Shown: positions 55,664 through 64,000 of the stretch, piece by piece | How positions within the stretch are numbered: the stretch's first letter is position 1 | Layout of the letters: every line of letters begins with the position of its first letter | The notes under the pieces: generated by a model | What the model was told of the DNA's origin: nothing | What the model saw: the letters and a program-made list of their open reading frames with translations, nothing else | Databases searched by the model: none | Position numbers and translations under genes: made by a program | Assembly (NCBI GenBank): GCA_016840285.1 | Contig: JAEOSR010000043.1 | Location: 1 to 64,000, forward strand | Length of the DNA: 64,000 bases | Direction: 5' to 3' | Origin: Candidatus Hodarchaeota archaeon | GTDB taxonomy: Archaea > Asgardarchaeota > Heimdallarchaeia > Hodarchaeales > Hodarchaeaceae

Positions 55664-56524
55664 ATGGATACTTCAGCAAAGGCCCATAATGATGAACTTA
55701 TGAAAGCAGGGTATCAACTCTTGAAACGTTGTGACGATGAGGGAATTTCTTGTTTTCTATGGGGTGGTGGGGCAATATACCACATGCTTGGAGGAAGACT
55801 TAATTATAGAAAAATGAGTGATCTGGAATTTTTTCTGCCAAAAAAGTATGATCACCGTGTTCAGAATCTCCTAGAAGATTTCGGGTTTATTCCCTATACT
55901 ACTTTCAATAACATGCAAAACATGTCTAGAACACCTAGAAGAGAATTTTACCGTCCTAATCGTGAACTATCTGACCTTGAAATCGAAGAAGTAGAACATG
56001 GGAGGAAAAGTAACATTGATGATGTCAAATTTCAAAAAATTGAACTATTTGTGGATGGCATTAAAATGTGTTGGACATTCAATTTCAAGGAATTGCCTTC
56101 AGATTATAAGAAAAGTCTTATATCCCCTCCAGGGTTTCAATTGGCTCTCAAAGCAAACGCTATCCATTCTGATGACTTTGATCTCAAGGATGTTCAAGAC
56201 ATTTCAAGTGTAGTTAGTTCAAGTTGTTGTGAAGAAGTTACAACAGAAGACACTATATTTAAAGAGCCAAATTTGGATGGGGATATTAGTTACTCTATTG
56301 GTACCAGAATTTTCAGACTTTTATCTCAAAAGAAGTATGAATTTCCCAGTACAGTAATTAAGAATTTCAATGAATGTCTTAAATATCCAAAATTATCTGA
56401 AAATGGCAAAAAAATACTATTACAATTAATAGAATTCTTAAAACCTTTTGAGGAACAAGATTTAGGTGCAGGATTGATAGCTAAAGCCAAGAAGGAAAAA
56501 CCTCGTCGTGTTGACGCAAGATAG
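55664..56524 (+). CDS. Nucleotidyltransferase-fold protein (first of convergent pair)
   Basis: 286 residues. FLWGGGAIYHMLGGRLNYRK then MSDLEFFLPKKYD (about 31-63) is the GG...[ST]-D-x-[DE] pattern of the nucleotidyltransferase superfamily, with D53 and E55 as candidate metal ligands. A following strand with FQKIELFVDGIKMCWTFNFK fits the β-sheet. The C-terminal 100 residues are helical. It resembles AbiEii/MNT-type proteins in arrangement. Whether it is catalytic is unknown. It faces a second, distinct nucleotidyltransferase-like gene; their stops are 102 bases apart. Confidence 0.65.
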   Translation: MDTSAKAHNDELMKAGYQLLKRCDDEGISCFLWGGGAIYHMLGGRLNYRKMSDLEFFLPKKYDHRVQNLLEDFGFIPYTTFNNMQNMSRTPRREFYRPNRELSDLEIEEVEHGRKSNIDDVKFQKIELFVDGIKMCWTFNFKELPSDYKKSLISPPGFQLALKANAIHSDDFDLKDVQDISSVVSSSCCEEVTTEDTIFKEPNLDGDISYSIGTRIFRLLSQKKYEFPSTVIKNFNECLKYPKLSENGKKILLQLIEFLKPFEEQDLGAGLIAKAKKEKPRRVDAR

Positions 56525-56626: not shown

Positions 56627-57553
56627 CTATATTTTAGGATTCATATCTTTATCCTCTGGTTTTTCAAGTAAGTGTTTCCCACTAAAGATCCTGAATTCAC
56701 CAACAGTCTTAGTTGTTTCAACAGGTCTGTACCACCTCTTAGATGCACCTACTTTTGCTCTAGCGCGCCAGCTACGGTTTTTGGGAATTTCTGCGAAGTA
56801 ATTAAGCATTTTATCAATCTTTTCACTAATATTGTTACGTTGTTCTTCAGAAAGCTCTTGAAATTCTGGTAAAACATTTTTAATATTGGTTAGGTTTGTA
56901 GTTACGGTATGGTAGAATCCCCAAGCATATCCTCCTTTTTGTAAATACTTTTCGCCAATATATTTGATATTTATAATCTCTGGTAAGTCATCAAATCCTA
57001 TATCGTGAGCTAACAATAACATCACGGTATCAGCAACATCCTTATAGTTCATAAAAACAATTTGAGTTTTACCAAGGAACAACTCGGCTAAAGGAAGAGA
57101 AGGAGAATCTAATTGCAGTCTTTTATGGTCCAGTTCAATATCATGATTAAATTTCATTTTACCGTAGAATACATCACAGAACCACCAATTTTTTGGATGG
57201 ATGTATATTCTACGCTGACTTGCTGCTGTTGATAATGTTGGCTTTCGTTTTAAATAACCTAACTTTTTCATAAATTTGTCCATTTTTTTCATATGTTTGT
57301 AGGAAATTGCTCCATCTATATCTGTGATTTCTATCTTGTCTCCAAGTCTTTTCATTTTTTTGTATAATTCTTCTAGCCCATGGGATTGAGTATGCAGTCG
57401 TATGGCTAATCCCCCTACTAATCGAAAATGGACACCGAATTCTTCAGCTTGAGTAACTAATTTCATTGCTTCTTCAATAAAAACGTTTAGAGGAACGACT
57501 CCATCCCATTCTTTGGGCATATCAACTGATACACCCTCTTTTTCTTGTAACAT
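56627..57553 (-). CDS. Nucleotidyltransferase-fold protein (second of convergent pair)
   Basis: 308 residues. VHFRLVGGLAIRLHTQS (41-57, the GG pair at 47-48) and IEITDIDGAIS (D78, D80) form the nucleotidyltransferase signature. A later KMKFNHDIELDHKRLQLDSPSLPLAELFLGKTQI (about 151-183) matches the AbiEii-like continuation, where a conserved LP.AELFLGK-type segment is common. It may be an active transferase or a toxin/antitoxin-type protein. AGGAGG lies 11 bases upstream of the ATG at 57553. The neighbouring methyltransferase gene lies upstream on the same strand. Confidence 0.68.
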   Translation of the reverse strand: MLQEKEGVSVDMPKEWDGVVPLNVFIEEAMKLVTQAEEFGVHFRLVGGLAIRLHTQSHGLEELYKKMKRLGDKIEITDIDGAISYKHMKKMDKFMKKLGYLKRKPTLSTAASQRRIYIHPKNWWFCDVFYGKMKFNHDIELDHKRLQLDSPSLPLAELFLGKTQIVFMNYKDVADTVMLLLAHDIGFDDLPEIINIKYIGEKYLQKGGYAWGFYHTVTTNLTNIKNVLPEFQELSEEQRNNISEKIDKMLNYFAEIPKNRSWRARAKVGASKRWYRPVETTKTVGEFRIFSGKHLLEKPEDKDMNPKI

Positions 57554-57639: not shown

Positions 57640-59373
57640 TCATATCCTAGATGCAAAATTACTCTCAATAATTTTCCTTTCAATCGGTGTTATATTGTAG
57701 ATCAAAAATACTAAATCATCCATGAAGGTATGGAGTACTTTGAGTTCATTAAATTTGGCCATTAATTCCATGTATTGATCATTCTGCAGAGAAGTTGCTT
57801 TAGAATTCTGAAATTCAAGAGTCAAATTTTGATAAAGCTTCTTAAAATTTTGGAAATCAGTTCTTTTCTGATTAAATTGAAAGAATTCGTCTTCCTCAAT
57901 TATTAGATTTAAGAGATCTTTAAATTTTGCCCCAACACATTGATATTTGGAATATGTTTCCCCTAAAGTATGAAATATTTCAATAACCGGCCGAAATCTT
58001 AGCTGTTTTACGATTTCTTCAAAATTTTTAGTTTCAAGAAGCCTTGCTAGTTTTTTACGGAGATTAGGAGTCTTTGAACCATTAATTCGTGGAATTCTTA
58101 TTGAATTAACATAAGCCTTATCAAAATCTTTGCTTGTTACAAACTCTTTTGAATACACAGCGTGCTGGAGCCACCAAGCAGTCAGTGAAGATTCTAGTAA
58201 ACCCGCAACAGCGAATAGGGATAAAATATCTTGTGAATAATTCGAAATGATATTGATTACAGTCTCATGAGTTAACATAACACCTTCCTGATCCACCCAT
58301 GTTTTTATATTCAAATTAAATTTAGGTTTTGTTTGATAGGAAATTATCCGCTGAGCAATAATCTTAGGGATTTGTTGTCGGTTTAGCTTTTCAATTGGAG
58401 TTCTTTCATGCAAAAAACTACGTGCTGGAAATAAGAACCCAGTTGATATCGTTGCTTTTTCTATTAGTGGTATAGTGCCTTTTTTTGTGCGGAATTTACT
58501 GCTCATTCCTCGAAAAACCGCCAGATCCAAAAATTGATACTCATCACTGTAGAGACGACGAATAATCTCTAATTCTGGGGTACTAACTCCCACCAGTAAG
58601 TTATCTACCATTAAGGCGTCAAAAGATGATACAATACTTATTTGATCAAAATCATTTCCGGTTGAATTCCATATTCCAGTTTGATATTCTTGAGGTCTAA
58701 TATCTGAGTTCTCTTTTTTTGCAATTATTGCGCATTGTTCTTGTAATTGTCCAGTGAATTGATTACCAAGATCAAGAACTTCAACTAAGTAAAAATCAGT
58801 TAAAAGGATTTTTCTGAACTCAGTCCATCTTTTGGAATAAATTATAGGTTTAGGTAATAGAAAACAGAGGATACCACCTGGTTTTAGAAGAGAAAGTGAA
58901 TGCAAAGTAAAAAAAATAGAACTTTCAGAATAAATTAGAGAATTTTGACCAAATTGGCATTTTTTTCGAATTTGTGTCCATTCGAGTTGTGAATAAAGAG
59001 CGTTATGAGGGGGATTGCCAATAATTATATCAAATTTGGTAGGTAAAACTGAGGGGAAATTTAGAAAAAAGTCACCTTGTTTTAGCTTAACTTCATAAGA
59101 AGTACTTTTAGCTAACTGAATTAATTCCTTTTTAGCAATTTTAAGCAGAGAAGGATCAATGTCAATTCCGAAAAGCTTTACATCAGAGACAAATGAGGAA
59201 ATCATTGGAATCAACGAAATAAAGAAAATACCTTTACCAATTGCTGGATCTAATACCGTTATTGGTCTTGATTGATAATCATAGGGAAACTGATCTATAA
59301 CACGCTTCAAAATTGCTTGTACTAGTGGTTTAGGGGTAAAAAACTGTCCCTTGGCCTTTTTTTTCAGTCCCAT
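57640..59373 (-). CDS. Adenine-specific DNA methyltransferase
   Basis: 577 residues. GQFFTPKPLVQAILKRVID starts the domain. Motif I is LDPAIGKGIFFISL (41-54), with lysine inside the usual GxG loop. FGIDIDPSL follows, and the catalytic motif is IIIGNPPHN (NPPH 120-123), with histidine replacing tyrosine. The specificity half starts near VFRGMSSKFRTKKGTIPLIE. N-terminal motif spacing matches TaqI-like enzymes. NPPH occurs rarely but can work. It lies 35 bases downstream of the tRNA nucleotidyltransferase fusion gene on the same strand; a shared transcript is possible. Confidence 0.82.
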   Translation of the reverse strand: MGLKKKAKGQFFTPKPLVQAILKRVIDQFPYDYQSRPITVLDPAIGKGIFFISLIPMISSFVSDVKLFGIDIDPSLLKIAKKELIQLAKSTSYEVKLKQGDFFLNFPSVLPTKFDIIIGNPPHNALYSQLEWTQIRKKCQFGQNSLIYSESSIFFTLHSLSLLKPGGILCFLLPKPIIYSKRWTEFRKILLTDFYLVEVLDLGNQFTGQLQEQCAIIAKKENSDIRPQEYQTGIWNSTGNDFDQISIVSSFDALMVDNLLVGVSTPELEIIRRLYSDEYQFLDLAVFRGMSSKFRTKKGTIPLIEKATISTGFLFPARSFLHERTPIEKLNRQQIPKIIAQRIISYQTKPKFNLNIKTWVDQEGVMLTHETVINIISNYSQDILSLFAVAGLLESSLTAWWLQHAVYSKEFVTSKDFDKAYVNSIRIPRINGSKTPNLRKKLARLLETKNFEEIVKQLRFRPVIEIFHTLGETYSKYQCVGAKFKDLLNLIIEEDEFFQFNQKRTDFQNFKKLYQNLTLEFQNSKATSLQNDQYMELMAKFNELKVLHTFMDDLVFLIYNITPIERKIIESNFASRI

Positions 59374-59408: not shown

Positions 59409-61364
59409 CTATAGGACTTCCAACTGTTTCTGAAGAACATAAGCTGTATAAGTTTTACCAGTAAGTACATTCCCGCTCATTACAATGAAACGATGATTAT
59501 TTTGTTGTATTAAATTTAAAATATCATGAATTTTTGTCTTGAAATTCGGATTACGTGTTGATATTTGAATTAGTGCATATTCTTTAGGTGTAGATAGAGC
59601 TTTTGGATATCTTTGAAGTAACTCCTGATAACGCCGAAAAATGGAAAAATCAGCATCACTCTTTTTAATAGATGATTTCTCCAGGTCACGAGTATGTGAA
59701 TTAAGTTTAACCTCGTTCTCTGTAGCACTAGTGTTAATGTATAATGGTTTATATTTCCTAAACTTTCTGCCTAATGACTCTCTGTGATCTTGATGAGCAG
59801 GCATGTTAAAATTTGTACCATCAAAAATGACGATGAAATTAGGATTTTTACGAAGAAGACAGAGAGCCAGCCATTTAGCTAAAACGTACGTGTGTTCATT
59901 TTCCCATCGTAAATATTCAGGAGAACCATTACGATATAATTTTCTGATGAAATCAGTTGAAACCACACGTACTCGTCGTGTAATGCGTGTTGTGCATTGA
60001 GATAAAATTCTATTGAGGTTATCAAGAATAGGAAGGAGATGACGTTTTTGATTGATTTGAGGATCAGTTTCTACTCTTTCACGGATAATTTCTAAACATA
60101 ATCCAATTAACTCTCTTTGAGAAGCATGCTTCTTATTTAATTGTAGATATTGAATGATATCATCGCCATTTACAACAAGAGTGTTTAACTCGATGGGTGG
60201 GTGAGTCTCAGCTCTATTTAGAATATCTGCTTTAAGCTCCTCTGTTAATCGTTTTCCTTCTTGTAATCCCCTCTCCTTAGCATCATAAAACATTAGATAA
60301 TCGTGAAAATATTCGGGTCTAATAGTGTGTTGAAATTTTCTTATCGAATAATTTCTCTCCTCGGTTTTTTCCGTCATAGAATAAGGAAGAGGAAGTAAAT
60401 GAACTGATAAGATATGAGTTACGTCTGCTATCTGTTTATTAGAACACTTCATTCGTTTCATAAATTCTCGAATATTGTTCTCTCGGAATGGAGGGAAAAG
60501 CTTCTTAGACATCTTTTCTATTGGTAATTGATGAATTAATGTAGCGAAACGTAATCTTGGTGAGGAATCCTTTGGGAGATGTGAGATGATTCTCAATGTT
60601 AGTTCTATTCTATTTATTTCAAGTTCTGGAATAATTTTGTGGAATTCATCATAACTGAATTCAGGTATTAGTTGATATAATAACCGACTTTTTTCAAGTA
60701 ATAAAATAGCTTTTTGAAAAAATGCTCCTCGTAACAATTTTTGGAATTCTGTGTGTATTCGCTCCTTTGCTACTTTTACAAATACACTAAAATGGTGAGG
60801 AACTGCACTAAGAGTCTTGGATTCTATATCGAATCCTAATTGAGAAACAAATCTAAAAACTCGAATTAAGCGGAGTCCATCTTCTTGTAACCGTTCATGC
60901 GGATCACCGACCATTCTGATGATTTGAGCTTTGATGTCATCAATTCCATTGAATGGATCTGAGAGTTCATCGTTAATAGGATCGTATGCAATAGCATTTA
61001 TTGTGAGATCACGTCGGGATAAGTCTTCACTGATATTTTCCACAAAATGAACCTCTGCAGGTCTTCGTGCATCTATATATTCTCCTTCCTTTCGAAAAGT
61101 CGTTATTTCTATTACTATATCATTGTATATAATTGTAACTGTTCCATGTTTAATTCCTGTTGGTATTACACGGAATTTTTGATTAAAAATTTTAATTACT
61201 TCAGAAGGTTTAGCATCTGTTGCTATATCCCAATCTTGGGGAGAAAAAGCTCCCTGAATAATGTCGCGAATGGATCCCCCAACAATATATGCTTGAAATC
61301 CATGGTTAATTAGTAGTTGGCAAATATTGATTATTTCAATTGGTATTCTATCCTTTGCCAACAT
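59409..61364 (-). CDS. CCA-adding/poly(A) polymerase-like enzyme fused to a permuted kinase domain
   Basis: 651 residues. Residues 1-400 are a class II tRNA nucleotidyltransferase: IVGGSIRDII (28-37), the catalytic DWDIATDA (44-51), SRRDLTINAIAYDP (116-129) and RLIRVFRFVSQLGF (165-178). After the helical body, residues 460-625 match most of a polynucleotide-kinase-like P-loop fold: VVSTDFIRKL (467-476, D471 and R474), FIVIFDGTNFN (510-520) and a lid with LNSHTRDL. The Walker A motif is missing from its usual place. It appears at the very end: FIVMSGNVLTGKTYTAYVL (626-644). The domain is therefore circularly permuted. The role is probably tRNA 3'-end maturation or repair combined with 5'-phosphorylation. 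Confidence 0.8.
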   Translation of the reverse strand: MLAKDRIPIEIINICQLLINHGFQAYIVGGSIRDIIQGAFSPQDWDIATDAKPSEVIKIFNQKFRVIPTGIKHGTVTIIYNDIVIEITTFRKEGEYIDARRPAEVHFVENISEDLSRRDLTINAIAYDPINDELSDPFNGIDDIKAQIIRMVGDPHERLQEDGLRLIRVFRFVSQLGFDIESKTLSAVPHHFSVFVKVAKERIHTEFQKLLRGAFFQKAILLLEKSRLLYQLIPEFSYDEFHKIIPELEINRIELTLRIISHLPKDSSPRLRFATLIHQLPIEKMSKKLFPPFRENNIREFMKRMKCSNKQIADVTHILSVHLLPLPYSMTEKTEERNYSIRKFQHTIRPEYFHDYLMFYDAKERGLQEGKRLTEELKADILNRAETHPPIELNTLVVNGDDIIQYLQLNKKHASQRELIGLCLEIIRERVETDPQINQKRHLLPILDNLNRILSQCTTRITRRVRVVSTDFIRKLYRNGSPEYLRWENEHTYVLAKWLALCLLRKNPNFIVIFDGTNFNMPAHQDHRESLGRKFRKYKPLYINTSATENEVKLNSHTRDLEKSSIKKSDADFSIFRRYQELLQRYPKALSTPKEYALIQISTRNPNFKTKIHDILNLIQQNNHRFIVMSGNVLTGKTYTAYVLQKQLEVL

Positions 61365-61517: not shown

Positions 61518-64000
61518 ATGATCCAGTTATATTCTAGTTTGAAGCCCTTTTATGAGAAATTTCTTATCAGGGGTCAATCTTATGGACTATCCCCGCATAA
61601 AATTCATGAAATGGCCTTAAACCTTTTTATTAAATTTCTTAGTGTTGTTATTCTTGTAACATCTAGCGGGAGTATTAGGGAACGGGAGAAATCATTAATG
61701 GATTCTCAAAAGATTCGTAAGGCAATTCATGAAATCTTATTTCAGAAAGGTTTACTGACTCCACAACTATTCCCCAATGGTGTACCTCCTATTTTGTATG
61801 AATTACTTGAATTATCTCATCAAGAGATACAATTTAAGGATTCTTTACCCCCTGAAGAATGGGATATACTCATTGAGCTACTTCTAGCACAACAATGGAC
61901 TTTGACTGAAGATTTTAACGATGTTCATAAAGAAAAAACTCTGCTCTCTCCAGAATTTTTATCTTTTTTTTATGAGAATGTTCTAAATGATTTTGAGAAT
62001 TTTTTTCGTTTAACTCCTAAAGTTTCCAAAAGAAAACATAAAGGGATCTTTTATACTCCGTGGCGCATTATTCGTGAAATCACAGACAGGTGTTTTGACC
62101 ACCATATTAATATTAACTCTCATTCGATAATAGATCGAAAATTGAATATAAAAATCCTTGATCCGAGCTGTGGAACTGGTTCTTTTCTTGTTTATACTGC
62201 AGAAAGCATTTTTCAACGTTATAAAAGTAATTATGAGTCTGAAAATATAATCCCCCAGAAAATTATCGAAGAATGTATTTATGGTATAGATCTGTCTCAA
62301 AGCAGTTTAACTGTAGCTAAATTCAGACTATTATTTTGGATTCTTAATTTCGATCCTAATACAATTGATTCACTTCCCAATTGGTTATTTAGAAATATTT
62401 GTGTTGGAAACAGTTTATTTGGGCTTTATAACGAAAGAATTCAATATCCTCTGGATTATTCAACAGTTTTGTCACGAATAACTAGACAATTAAATTTTGA
62501 AAAACAGCAGCAATCATTTTCTAAGGCTGAGGAAAACTGGCTTGAGACTAGTTTTCACGTAAAAGACGCAAAAAAAGGATTTCTCCTAAAGAGTTCTCAC
62601 CAAAAAGCAATTCAAAGAGCAGAAGAAGACCTCCTGTCTCTTATCGATACATTCTACCAAAATTGGCTAAAAAAACGCTTAAGTACCTATCCACGTCCAG
62701 CACCCATCAAAAGGAATGATTTGGGAATAATTACACCTTTCCATTGGGGTATTGCCTTTCCTGAAGTGATCCTTAAAGGTGGTTTTGATGTAGTATTAGG
62801 AAATCCTCCCTATGGAAGGTCAATCCTCTCCAAAAATGAAAAATCAACGTTGAAATTGATATATAAATCATGCTCAGGCAAGAATCCAAAAAAATATAGC
62901 CTGAATGCCGCTAGTGCTTTCATTGAAAGGTCAATTATTGTTCTAAAACATAACGGAACATTAGGTCTAATTGTGCCTTTTTCAATTCTGAGAGTTGAGG
63001 AATTTGAAACTCTGCGGGAATATATGTTAGAAAGAACCATGATATGGAAAATTAATGATGAATCAGCAGCTTTTGCTGATGTTACCTTGGAAATGTGTTC
63101 CATTTTCTTGACTAAAAAAGTTGAATCGGACTATGAAGTTTCCATAAGTCCTCGTCCAAGCATTAACGCAGAGTTGACGGTTCCAATTAATATTTTTAAA
63201 AAATACAACCGCTTCATGATTTATTACAACGAGCTTTGGGATAAAACAGCTAGTCAGGGATTAGTACTGGATGGAGTGGTGAGTGGCGATTATGGAATTG
63301 ACCATCGGATCCTTAAAAAGGATTTGAGTTCAAAAAGTTCGAAAAAGTACCCAATTTGCTATTTACACTCAGGACGAAGTGTCGCAAAATATGCACTAAA
63401 TCCGAAATACTTTCAATGGTCAAAACCTCATCCTACAAATGAGCGATTTTCTACTTATTTTCGAGAGTCTAGGCTTGTGAATACAGCCATTGGTAATCGA
63501 TTTAGAGTAGCATATAAACCAGAAAAAATTGTGCCTGGTACTAATGTATCTATTCTAGAAATTGACCACTCTTACCATTTTTTTCCAATGTTAATTCTAT
63601 TAAACTCTGATCTCATTAATTATCTTTTAAAGAGATATATTCTCAATTTTAGTCATTTAACAGTCTATCTTCATAAATACTATACTAGACTAATTCCTAT
63701 TAAGTACCCACATGAATTCGAACAGGAATTTACAAACCTAGCAAGTTATCTCCTTTTCCTCAACCAAGCATATCTCTGTGGAAAAATAACTTATGATAAG
63801 CGAACTGATTACTTACTTAACCTAGCGAACTATTTAGTCTATGATCTATATTTCCCAGAAATTTTAGGAATATCATCCAACCTAGCAGTTAGTGTGGGAA
63901 AGTACTTGAAATCTATTGATATTGAATCCTTTCTCGATCTAATCCTTTTTCAGGAATCTGAAACTGATAGAGAACGGTTATCGTTAGTGATCTATTCGAA
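61518..64000 (+). CDS. Large Eco57I-like adenine methyltransferase (3' end missing)
   Basis: At least 827 codons, open to the window edge. The start at 61518 is preferred to the ATG at 61698 because the first segment (HEMALNLFIKFLSVVIL) matches the N-terminal helical region of the 840-residue methyltransferase. GIFYTPWRIIREI opens the catalytic part. Motif I is ILDPSCGTGSFLVY (215-221 core), followed by CIYGIDLSQSSL, and the catalytic motif is VVLGNPPYGRS (NPPY 429-432). A helical insert of about 100 residues separates them. The specificity part begins at VVSGDYGID. It may be a type IIG restriction-modification protein; no nuclease motif is recognised in what can be read. Confidence 0.85.
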   Translation, partial: MIQLYSSLKPFYEKFLIRGQSYGLSPHKIHEMALNLFIKFLSVVILVTSSGSIREREKSLMDSQKIRKAIHEILFQKGLLTPQLFPNGVPPILYELLELSHQEIQFKDSLPPEEWDILIELLLAQQWTLTEDFNDVHKEKTLLSPEFLSFFYENVLNDFENFFRLTPKVSKRKHKGIFYTPWRIIREITDRCFDHHININSHSIIDRKLNIKILDPSCGTGSFLVYTAESIFQRYKSNYESENIIPQKIIEECIYGIDLSQSSLTVAKFRLLFWILNFDPNTIDSLPNWLFRNICVGNSLFGLYNERIQYPLDYSTVLSRITRQLNFEKQQQSFSKAEENWLETSFHVKDAKKGFLLKSSHQKAIQRAEEDLLSLIDTFYQNWLKKRLSTYPRPAPIKRNDLGIITPFHWGIAFPEVILKGGFDVVLGNPPYGRSILSKNEKSTLKLIYKSCSGKNPKKYSLNAASAFIERSIIVLKHNGTLGLIVPFSILRVEEFETLREYMLERTMIWKINDESAAFADVTLEMCSIFLTKKVESDYEVSISPRPSINAELTVPINIFKKYNRFMIYYNELWDKTASQGLVLDGVVSGDYGIDHRILKKDLSSKSSKKYPICYLHSGRSVAKYALNPKYFQWSKPHPTNERFSTYFRESRLVNTAIGNRFRVAYKPEKIVPGTNVSILEIDHSYHFFPMLILLNSDLINYLLKRYILNFSHLTVYLHKYYTRLIPIKYPHEFEQEFTNLASYLLFLNQAYLCGKITYDKRTDYLLNLANYLVYDLYFPEILGISSNLAVSVGKYLKSIDIESFLDLILFQESETDRERLSLVIYS

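Follow-up and report, generated by a model that had tools for sequence, protein, structure and literature searches.

Can a P-loop kinase carry its ATP-binding loop at the very end of its chain, and what might such a kinase do when joined to an enzyme of tRNA 3' end synthesis? The question is raised by a gene in the first 64,000 nucleotides of contig JAEOSR010000043.1 from a Candidatus Hodarchaeota archaeon (assembly GCA_016840285.1); this whole stretch is referred to here as the window. An earlier, sequence-only reading had described the product as a kinase-like domain with its landmarks in rotated order, fused to a CCA-type nucleotidyltransferase. In the 651-residue protein a class II tRNA nucleotidyltransferase extends to about residue 450, and a P-loop kinase domain begins at about residue 461. 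The features are the following:

59409..61364, minus strand: the whole gene, class II tRNA nucleotidyltransferase plus a very probably circularly permuted P-loop kinase (open reading frame, family matches, alignments of 26 and 34 rows)
60915..61292, minus strand: nucleotidyltransferase head, residues 25-150 (PF01743, 127.9 bits, cut-off 23), with the VGGSIRD, DWD and RRD motifs
61059..61085, minus strand: flexible-loop motif GEYIDARRP, residues 94-102, of CCA- or A-adding type by motif alignment and the loop consensus in PMC7014341
60654..60836, minus strand: RNA-binding neck, residues 177-237 (PF12627, 45.6 bits, cut-off 22)
59412..59984, minus strand: P-loop kinase domain, residues 461-651, very probably circularly permuted (alignments, profiles and model)
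59943..59954, minus strand: D-x-x-R (D471, R474) after strand beta2, invariant in the 34-row alignment
59811..59822, minus strand: DGTN (515-518) after strand beta3; D515, T517 and N518 invariant in that alignment
59649..59690, minus strand: lid region, R559 and SDAD (569-572); R559, S569 and A571 invariant there
59451..59474, minus strand: C-terminal Walker A GNVLTGKT (631-638), the N-terminal segment in ordinary P-loop kinases (conservation, continuity after rotation)

Segment order in the kinase domain

The segments of the domain follow one another as beta2, D..R, beta3 (DGTN), lid, beta5, beta1, Walker A and alpha1. GNVLTGKT is the sole G....GK[ST] of the window protein and ends 13 residues before the stop, and VVSTDFIR, FDGTN and the SDAD region all lie N-terminal to it. 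A protein search with residues 440-651 returned 26 proteins, the window's own counted, and a second search with the more distant homologue P0026 returned 18. Combined, these gave 34 distinct proteins for alignment, namely 33 homologues and the window protein, with P0017, P0018 and P0024 N-terminally short. In all 34 the only G....GK[ST] follows the D-x-x-R strand and 12-23 residues remain after it; the canonical order with Walker A first was seen in none, and the rotated order proposed by the sequence-only reading was thus confirmed. Likewise, an intact Walker A ahead of VVSTD, the sign by which a truncated gene could have been recognized, was absent from the 34 aligned members. The source names of the homologues were Heimdallarchaeota, Hodarchaeota, Hodarchaeales, Promethearchaeota and, once, Thorarchaeota.

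The roles of Walker A, D-x-x-R, D-x-T-N and the lid arginine are known from the polynucleotide kinase (PNK) of phage T4. This signature set is present and conserved here: D471, R474, D515, T517, N518, R559, G631, G636 and K637 are invariant across the 34 rows, as are S569 and A571.

Profile comparisons were made with the segments in both orders. The window protein had no Pfam kinase match, and PF13671 (AAA_33) was absent for the whole protein and for the domain in either order. P0026, for its part, matches PF13671 at 31.1 bits (cut-off 27) over profile positions 21-135 of 143, omitting the first 20 positions. Ten of the 34 members were used for the comparisons of order by hhalign and Pfam. When rotated, the ten aligned with a seven-row alignment of canonical kinases at a score of 140.0 (E 3.5e-22) over 138 columns, through Walker A, as against 107.0 (E 1.2e-16) over 115 columns without Walker A in the natural order. 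Hence the alignment to canonical kinases reaches through Walker A only once the domain is rotated. In Pfam, rotation raised the number of members matching KTI12 from 2 to 9 and AAA_33 from 5 to 7; Zeta_toxin was matched by 8 rotated members and not listed for the natural order. When 34 rotation points were tried against seven kinases (L087 not among them), the mean score peaked at 31.5 bits with residue 605 as the start, and the natural order gave 26.0.

The rotated alignment, searched against 5.8 billion proteins, returned 13. Three of these, P0045-P0047 (195 residues each, E 4.0e-7 to 1.9e-4), are kinases of ordinary order. The other ten, P0035-P0044, look like pieces of fusions, judged by eye to be contig-end pieces or shortened gene calls, so that a standalone permuted kinase was rejected.

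Confident AlphaFold2 models assign the strand preceding Walker A to a sheet. The full-length model had a mean predicted local distance difference test (pLDDT) of 89.2 and a predicted template modelling score (pTM) of 0.81; for the isolated domain these were 87.7 and 0.86, with five strands, the last (626-631) directly before Walker A. In the top VIA-align row, 2bdt, residues 23-185 of the model align with 26-174 of the solved chain, whose first part stays outside the aligned range together with the final 27 residues of the model, as a permutation predicts. PDB sequence searches with the kinase domain in either order gave no significant match. Foldseek with the domain model found no significant relative and no kinase in its best 50, which include some P-loop GTPases (FtsY, Ffh). 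This last result speaks against a permuted kinase; a sequential structure search would, however, tend to miss a permutant, although this in itself proves nothing. Taken together, the profile and model comparisons make it very probable that the kinase chain is circularly permuted.

The nucleotidyltransferase part and its genomic setting

The fused partner also turned out as had been proposed. PF01743 and PF12627 are matched well above their curated cut-offs, the GG..RD, DxD, RRD and EDxxR motifs are all present (VGGSIRD, DWD, RRD and EDGLR in the window row), and this part has the fold features of class II CCA enzymes. All 10 fusion members placed in this motif alignment, out of the 34, have the A-addition flexible loop Y.D.R[RH]P; PMC7014341 gives the flexible-loop consensus as DGRbAxV. 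The NCBIfam CCA equivalog model NF009814 scored 277.9 bits and thereby missed its threshold of 290. Nonsynonymous divergence (dN) was well below synonymous divergence (dS) in both the nucleotidyltransferase part and the kinase core for all five pairs computed. Between the window and L001, dN/dS was 0.116/0.649 for the former and 0.102/0.51 for the latter; the P-loop piece, with 28 codons, is not long enough to be informative, and its dS was not computable in one pair. On sequence evidence the fusion of nucleotidyltransferase and kinase is conserved and real.

In a scan of the phylum that scored at most the best five candidates per genome, the fusion profile had some match in 40 of 227 genomes, in most of them confined to the nucleotidyltransferase part. 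Eight of the 227 encode a full-length fusion, all in the family of G001, where they make up 8 of 12 genomes; G008 has a second, partial copy. Nine further class II enzymes from the phylum (L056-L064) showed no such kinase extension by eye. According to PMC7014341, class I is the archaeal class of CCA-adding enzyme. The class I family PF09249 was matched in none of the eight fusion genomes (G001, G003, G005, G006, G008, G009, G010, G012; genome completeness not stated), in 2 of the 6 remaining genomes of the order, and in the four named archaea that served as positive control. The class I CCA enzyme corresponds to COG1746. In PMC9258230 this gene belongs to a set of 38 single-copy markers by which completeness is judged.

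A second, plain class II protein is encoded in each of the eight fusion genomes. Nine such paralogues (those of the eight genomes and one of G007) keep the catalytic motifs and are missing the D-x-R-R/H-P loop motif; L018, L026 and L029-L035 are open frames of 373-410 residues. The plain paralogues could be CC-adding enzymes, and since they keep the catalytic motifs without the loop motif, a division of labour is suggested in which the paralogue adds CC and the fusion A. A point against such a division is that an organism with two bona fide CCA-adding enzymes has been reported (PMC7432833). CCA is encoded at the 3' end in 2 of 13 distinct plus-strand tRNA genes read in four genomes, hence most of the tRNAs read need CCA addition. 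Among the tRNA genes of G001, G005, G010 and G002 many matches span about 100-130 nucleotides, some of them with introns according to ARAGORN.

Two methyltransferase-type genes flank the gene in the window:

57640..59373, minus strand, as the fusion: downstream neighbour, N6-adenine methyltransferase-like protein of 577 residues, after a gap of 35 bp
61518..63998, plus strand: upstream, divergent neighbour, Eco57I/TaqI_C-type methyltransferase of 827 residues, running off the window

This setting is constant. In all nine loci (the window and eight others) methyltransferase-type genes flank the fusion, a gene of about 530-610 residues related to the window's N6-methyltransferase following it on the same strand and a divergent gene of about 800-870 residues related to the Eco57I-type methyltransferase lying on its other side. 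In five loci (L080-L084) a third gene of about 540 residues comes next, a methyltransferase in L084, the one scanned. The fusion protein had no match in PADLOC, and matches of its methyltransferase neighbours to type II, IIG and PglX models were partial, so a known defence system was set aside. A viral or phage origin was likewise rejected: 50,697 phage records yielded nothing matching the kinase domain (E 0.01), and 27 pattern matches in viral contigs included none encoding a relative. The model of RtcR, a regulator of RNA repair, matched the domain weakly (14.5 bits, cut-off 650), which was put down to chance. Further along the window lie two nucleotidyltransferase-looking genes, one at 56627-57553 with a VGG motif and no Pfam match, the other at 55664-56524 with an NTP_transf_5 match below cut-off; relatives of both occur close to the fusion gene in L001, L078 and L079.

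Proposed activity and substrate of the kinase

Relatives of ordinary order were used to place the kinase, in a profile made of P0045-P0047 and four canonical-order kinases of the phylum, three of them from fusion genomes. Among the best 60 of its 122 solved-structure matches, the first was L-seryl-tRNA(Sec) kinase (PSTK, 1.6e-17). Adenylate kinase 9 scored 1.7e-11 with no single passing stretch, and Clostridium thermocellum Pnkp (CthPnkp) 2.3e-10; T4 PNK (1ly1) followed at 5.3e-5, ranked under several adenylate kinases and 6-phosphofructo-2-kinases. The C. thermocellum entry is titled Metallophosphoesterase, and we take it to be Pnkp; P0045 on its own also matches CthPnkp. The sequence-only reading had called the domain T4-PNK-like, which is too narrow as a label, the canonical relatives scoring best with PSTK and lower with T4 PNK. 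The 5'-kinase action in RNA repair that it also proposed stays conjectural.

We tentatively favour, and give nearly an even chance, the explanation that the protein is a bifunctional enzyme of tRNA ends in a lineage of Asgard archaea whose records bear the names Heimdallarchaeota, Hodarchaeota or Promethearchaeota. The N-terminal class II nucleotidyltransferase would finish or repair the tRNA 3' end, most likely by adding either the last A or CCA in full. The domain that follows it would be a P-loop kinase of the PNK/PSTK/AAA_33 clade, its chain cut between alpha1 and beta2 and its old C-terminus joined to beta1 by a short turn, and we infer that the strand, loop and helix of Walker A, which close the protein, complete the nucleotide site in cis. 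With ATP, this kinase would most likely phosphorylate a hydroxyl on a bound tRNA or tRNA fragment, and one protein would thereby put right both tRNA ends. From its sequence relatives the domain is likely an RNA hydroxyl kinase, and likely one that acts on tRNA ends; the 5'-OH is a first guess for the group phosphorylated. A stronger version, in which a permuted polynucleotide kinase has become fixed in one Asgard lineage and is coupled with the nucleotidyltransferase to serve both ends (5' phosphate and 3' CCA) and a class II CC/A pair with the fusion as its A-adding partner has replaced class I, seems doubtful. RtcB was matched in 12 of the 14 genomes of the order, 11 of them over the cut-off and all eight fusion genomes included. 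RtcB joins 5'-OH ends, and its presence makes a role of the kinase in splicing less obvious and one in repair or quality control more so.

The main competitor, possible at a clearly lower level, keeps the permuted active kinase and gives it a hydroxyl other than the 5' one: a PSTK- or KTI12-like tRNA-dependent kinase or ATPase would work on a charged 3' end or in tRNA handling. PSTK as best solved match, KTI12 as a match of nine of the ten rotated members, and a partner domain of the 3' end that would suit a 3'-end substrate all lend weight to it, but CthPnkp and T4 PNK are significant matches too and nothing was found pointing to an aminoacyl substrate. That the domain acts on a small molecule, or is an ATP-sensing or RNA-binding module tuning the nucleotidyltransferase, is unlikely: adenylate kinases and 6-phosphofructo-2-kinases are indeed among the significant matches, yet the full-length members are fused to a tRNA enzyme and the catalytic-type residues are invariant. 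Still less probable is that the Walker A segment at the C-terminus serves the kinase of a second subunit by a domain swap, or folds independently of residues 461-622. Modelling of a single chain does not discriminate between such a swap and completion in cis, but pLDDT is high through the segment, pTM is 0.86 for the isolated chain, and the turn between the last helix and beta1 is short. A truncated gene, frameshift or assembly error is hardly credible and was rejected, for the profile match of G010 does include a TAA, but none appears in the protein search there and it is probably the gene's own stop, while all 34 members share the C-terminal end, eight genomes (two on contigs of 4.9 and 3.2 Mb) hold full-length open frames and the next gene begins 35 bp past the stop.

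The bifunctional enzyme, if true, would bring tRNA 3'-end synthesis together with a kinase on a single chain. It would also be a P-loop kinase rotated in nature so that the ATP loop comes last, a test of how far the fold tolerates new termini. Its genomic setting is relevant to the formation of CCA ends in an Asgard lineage where no class I enzyme was detected. Neither fusion nor permutant was described in the titles and abstract beginnings of the open-licence PMC matches listed, a search that lay outside subscription papers and preprints.

Comparison with known systems

Thg1 with polynucleotide kinase neighbours offers the nearest idea, a nucleotide-adding enzyme proposed to work with PNK on tRNA ends (PMC2904730). 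In that system the genes are separate and polymerisation runs 3'-5' at the 5' end, whereas here there is one fused chain. Thg1 as partner of the present kinase was rejected: PF04446 was matched in none of the 14 genomes of the order, its positive control being matched in 1 of 14 named genomes. Class II CCA-adding enzymes such as that of Bacillus stearothermophilus (1miv) are bacterial or eukaryotic, whereas the present fusion is archaeal and has a C-terminal kinase domain. The kinases CthPnkp and T4 PNK, which are fused to a phosphatase or ligase, are both matched by the canonical relatives of the domain and have Walker A, D-x-x-R, D-x-T-N and the lid arginine in common with it; here Walker A comes last and the partner is a nucleotidyltransferase instead. 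PSTK and KTI12, close as they are by profile, differ in segment order and in the aminoacyl substrate to which nothing here points. Finally, the circularly permuted TRAFAC GTPases of the YlqF/RsgA type are P-loop NTPases rotated in nature. In those proteins the rotation concerns the GTPase motifs, whereas here it concerns a PNK/AAA_33-clade kinase whose Walker A lies right at the C-terminus.
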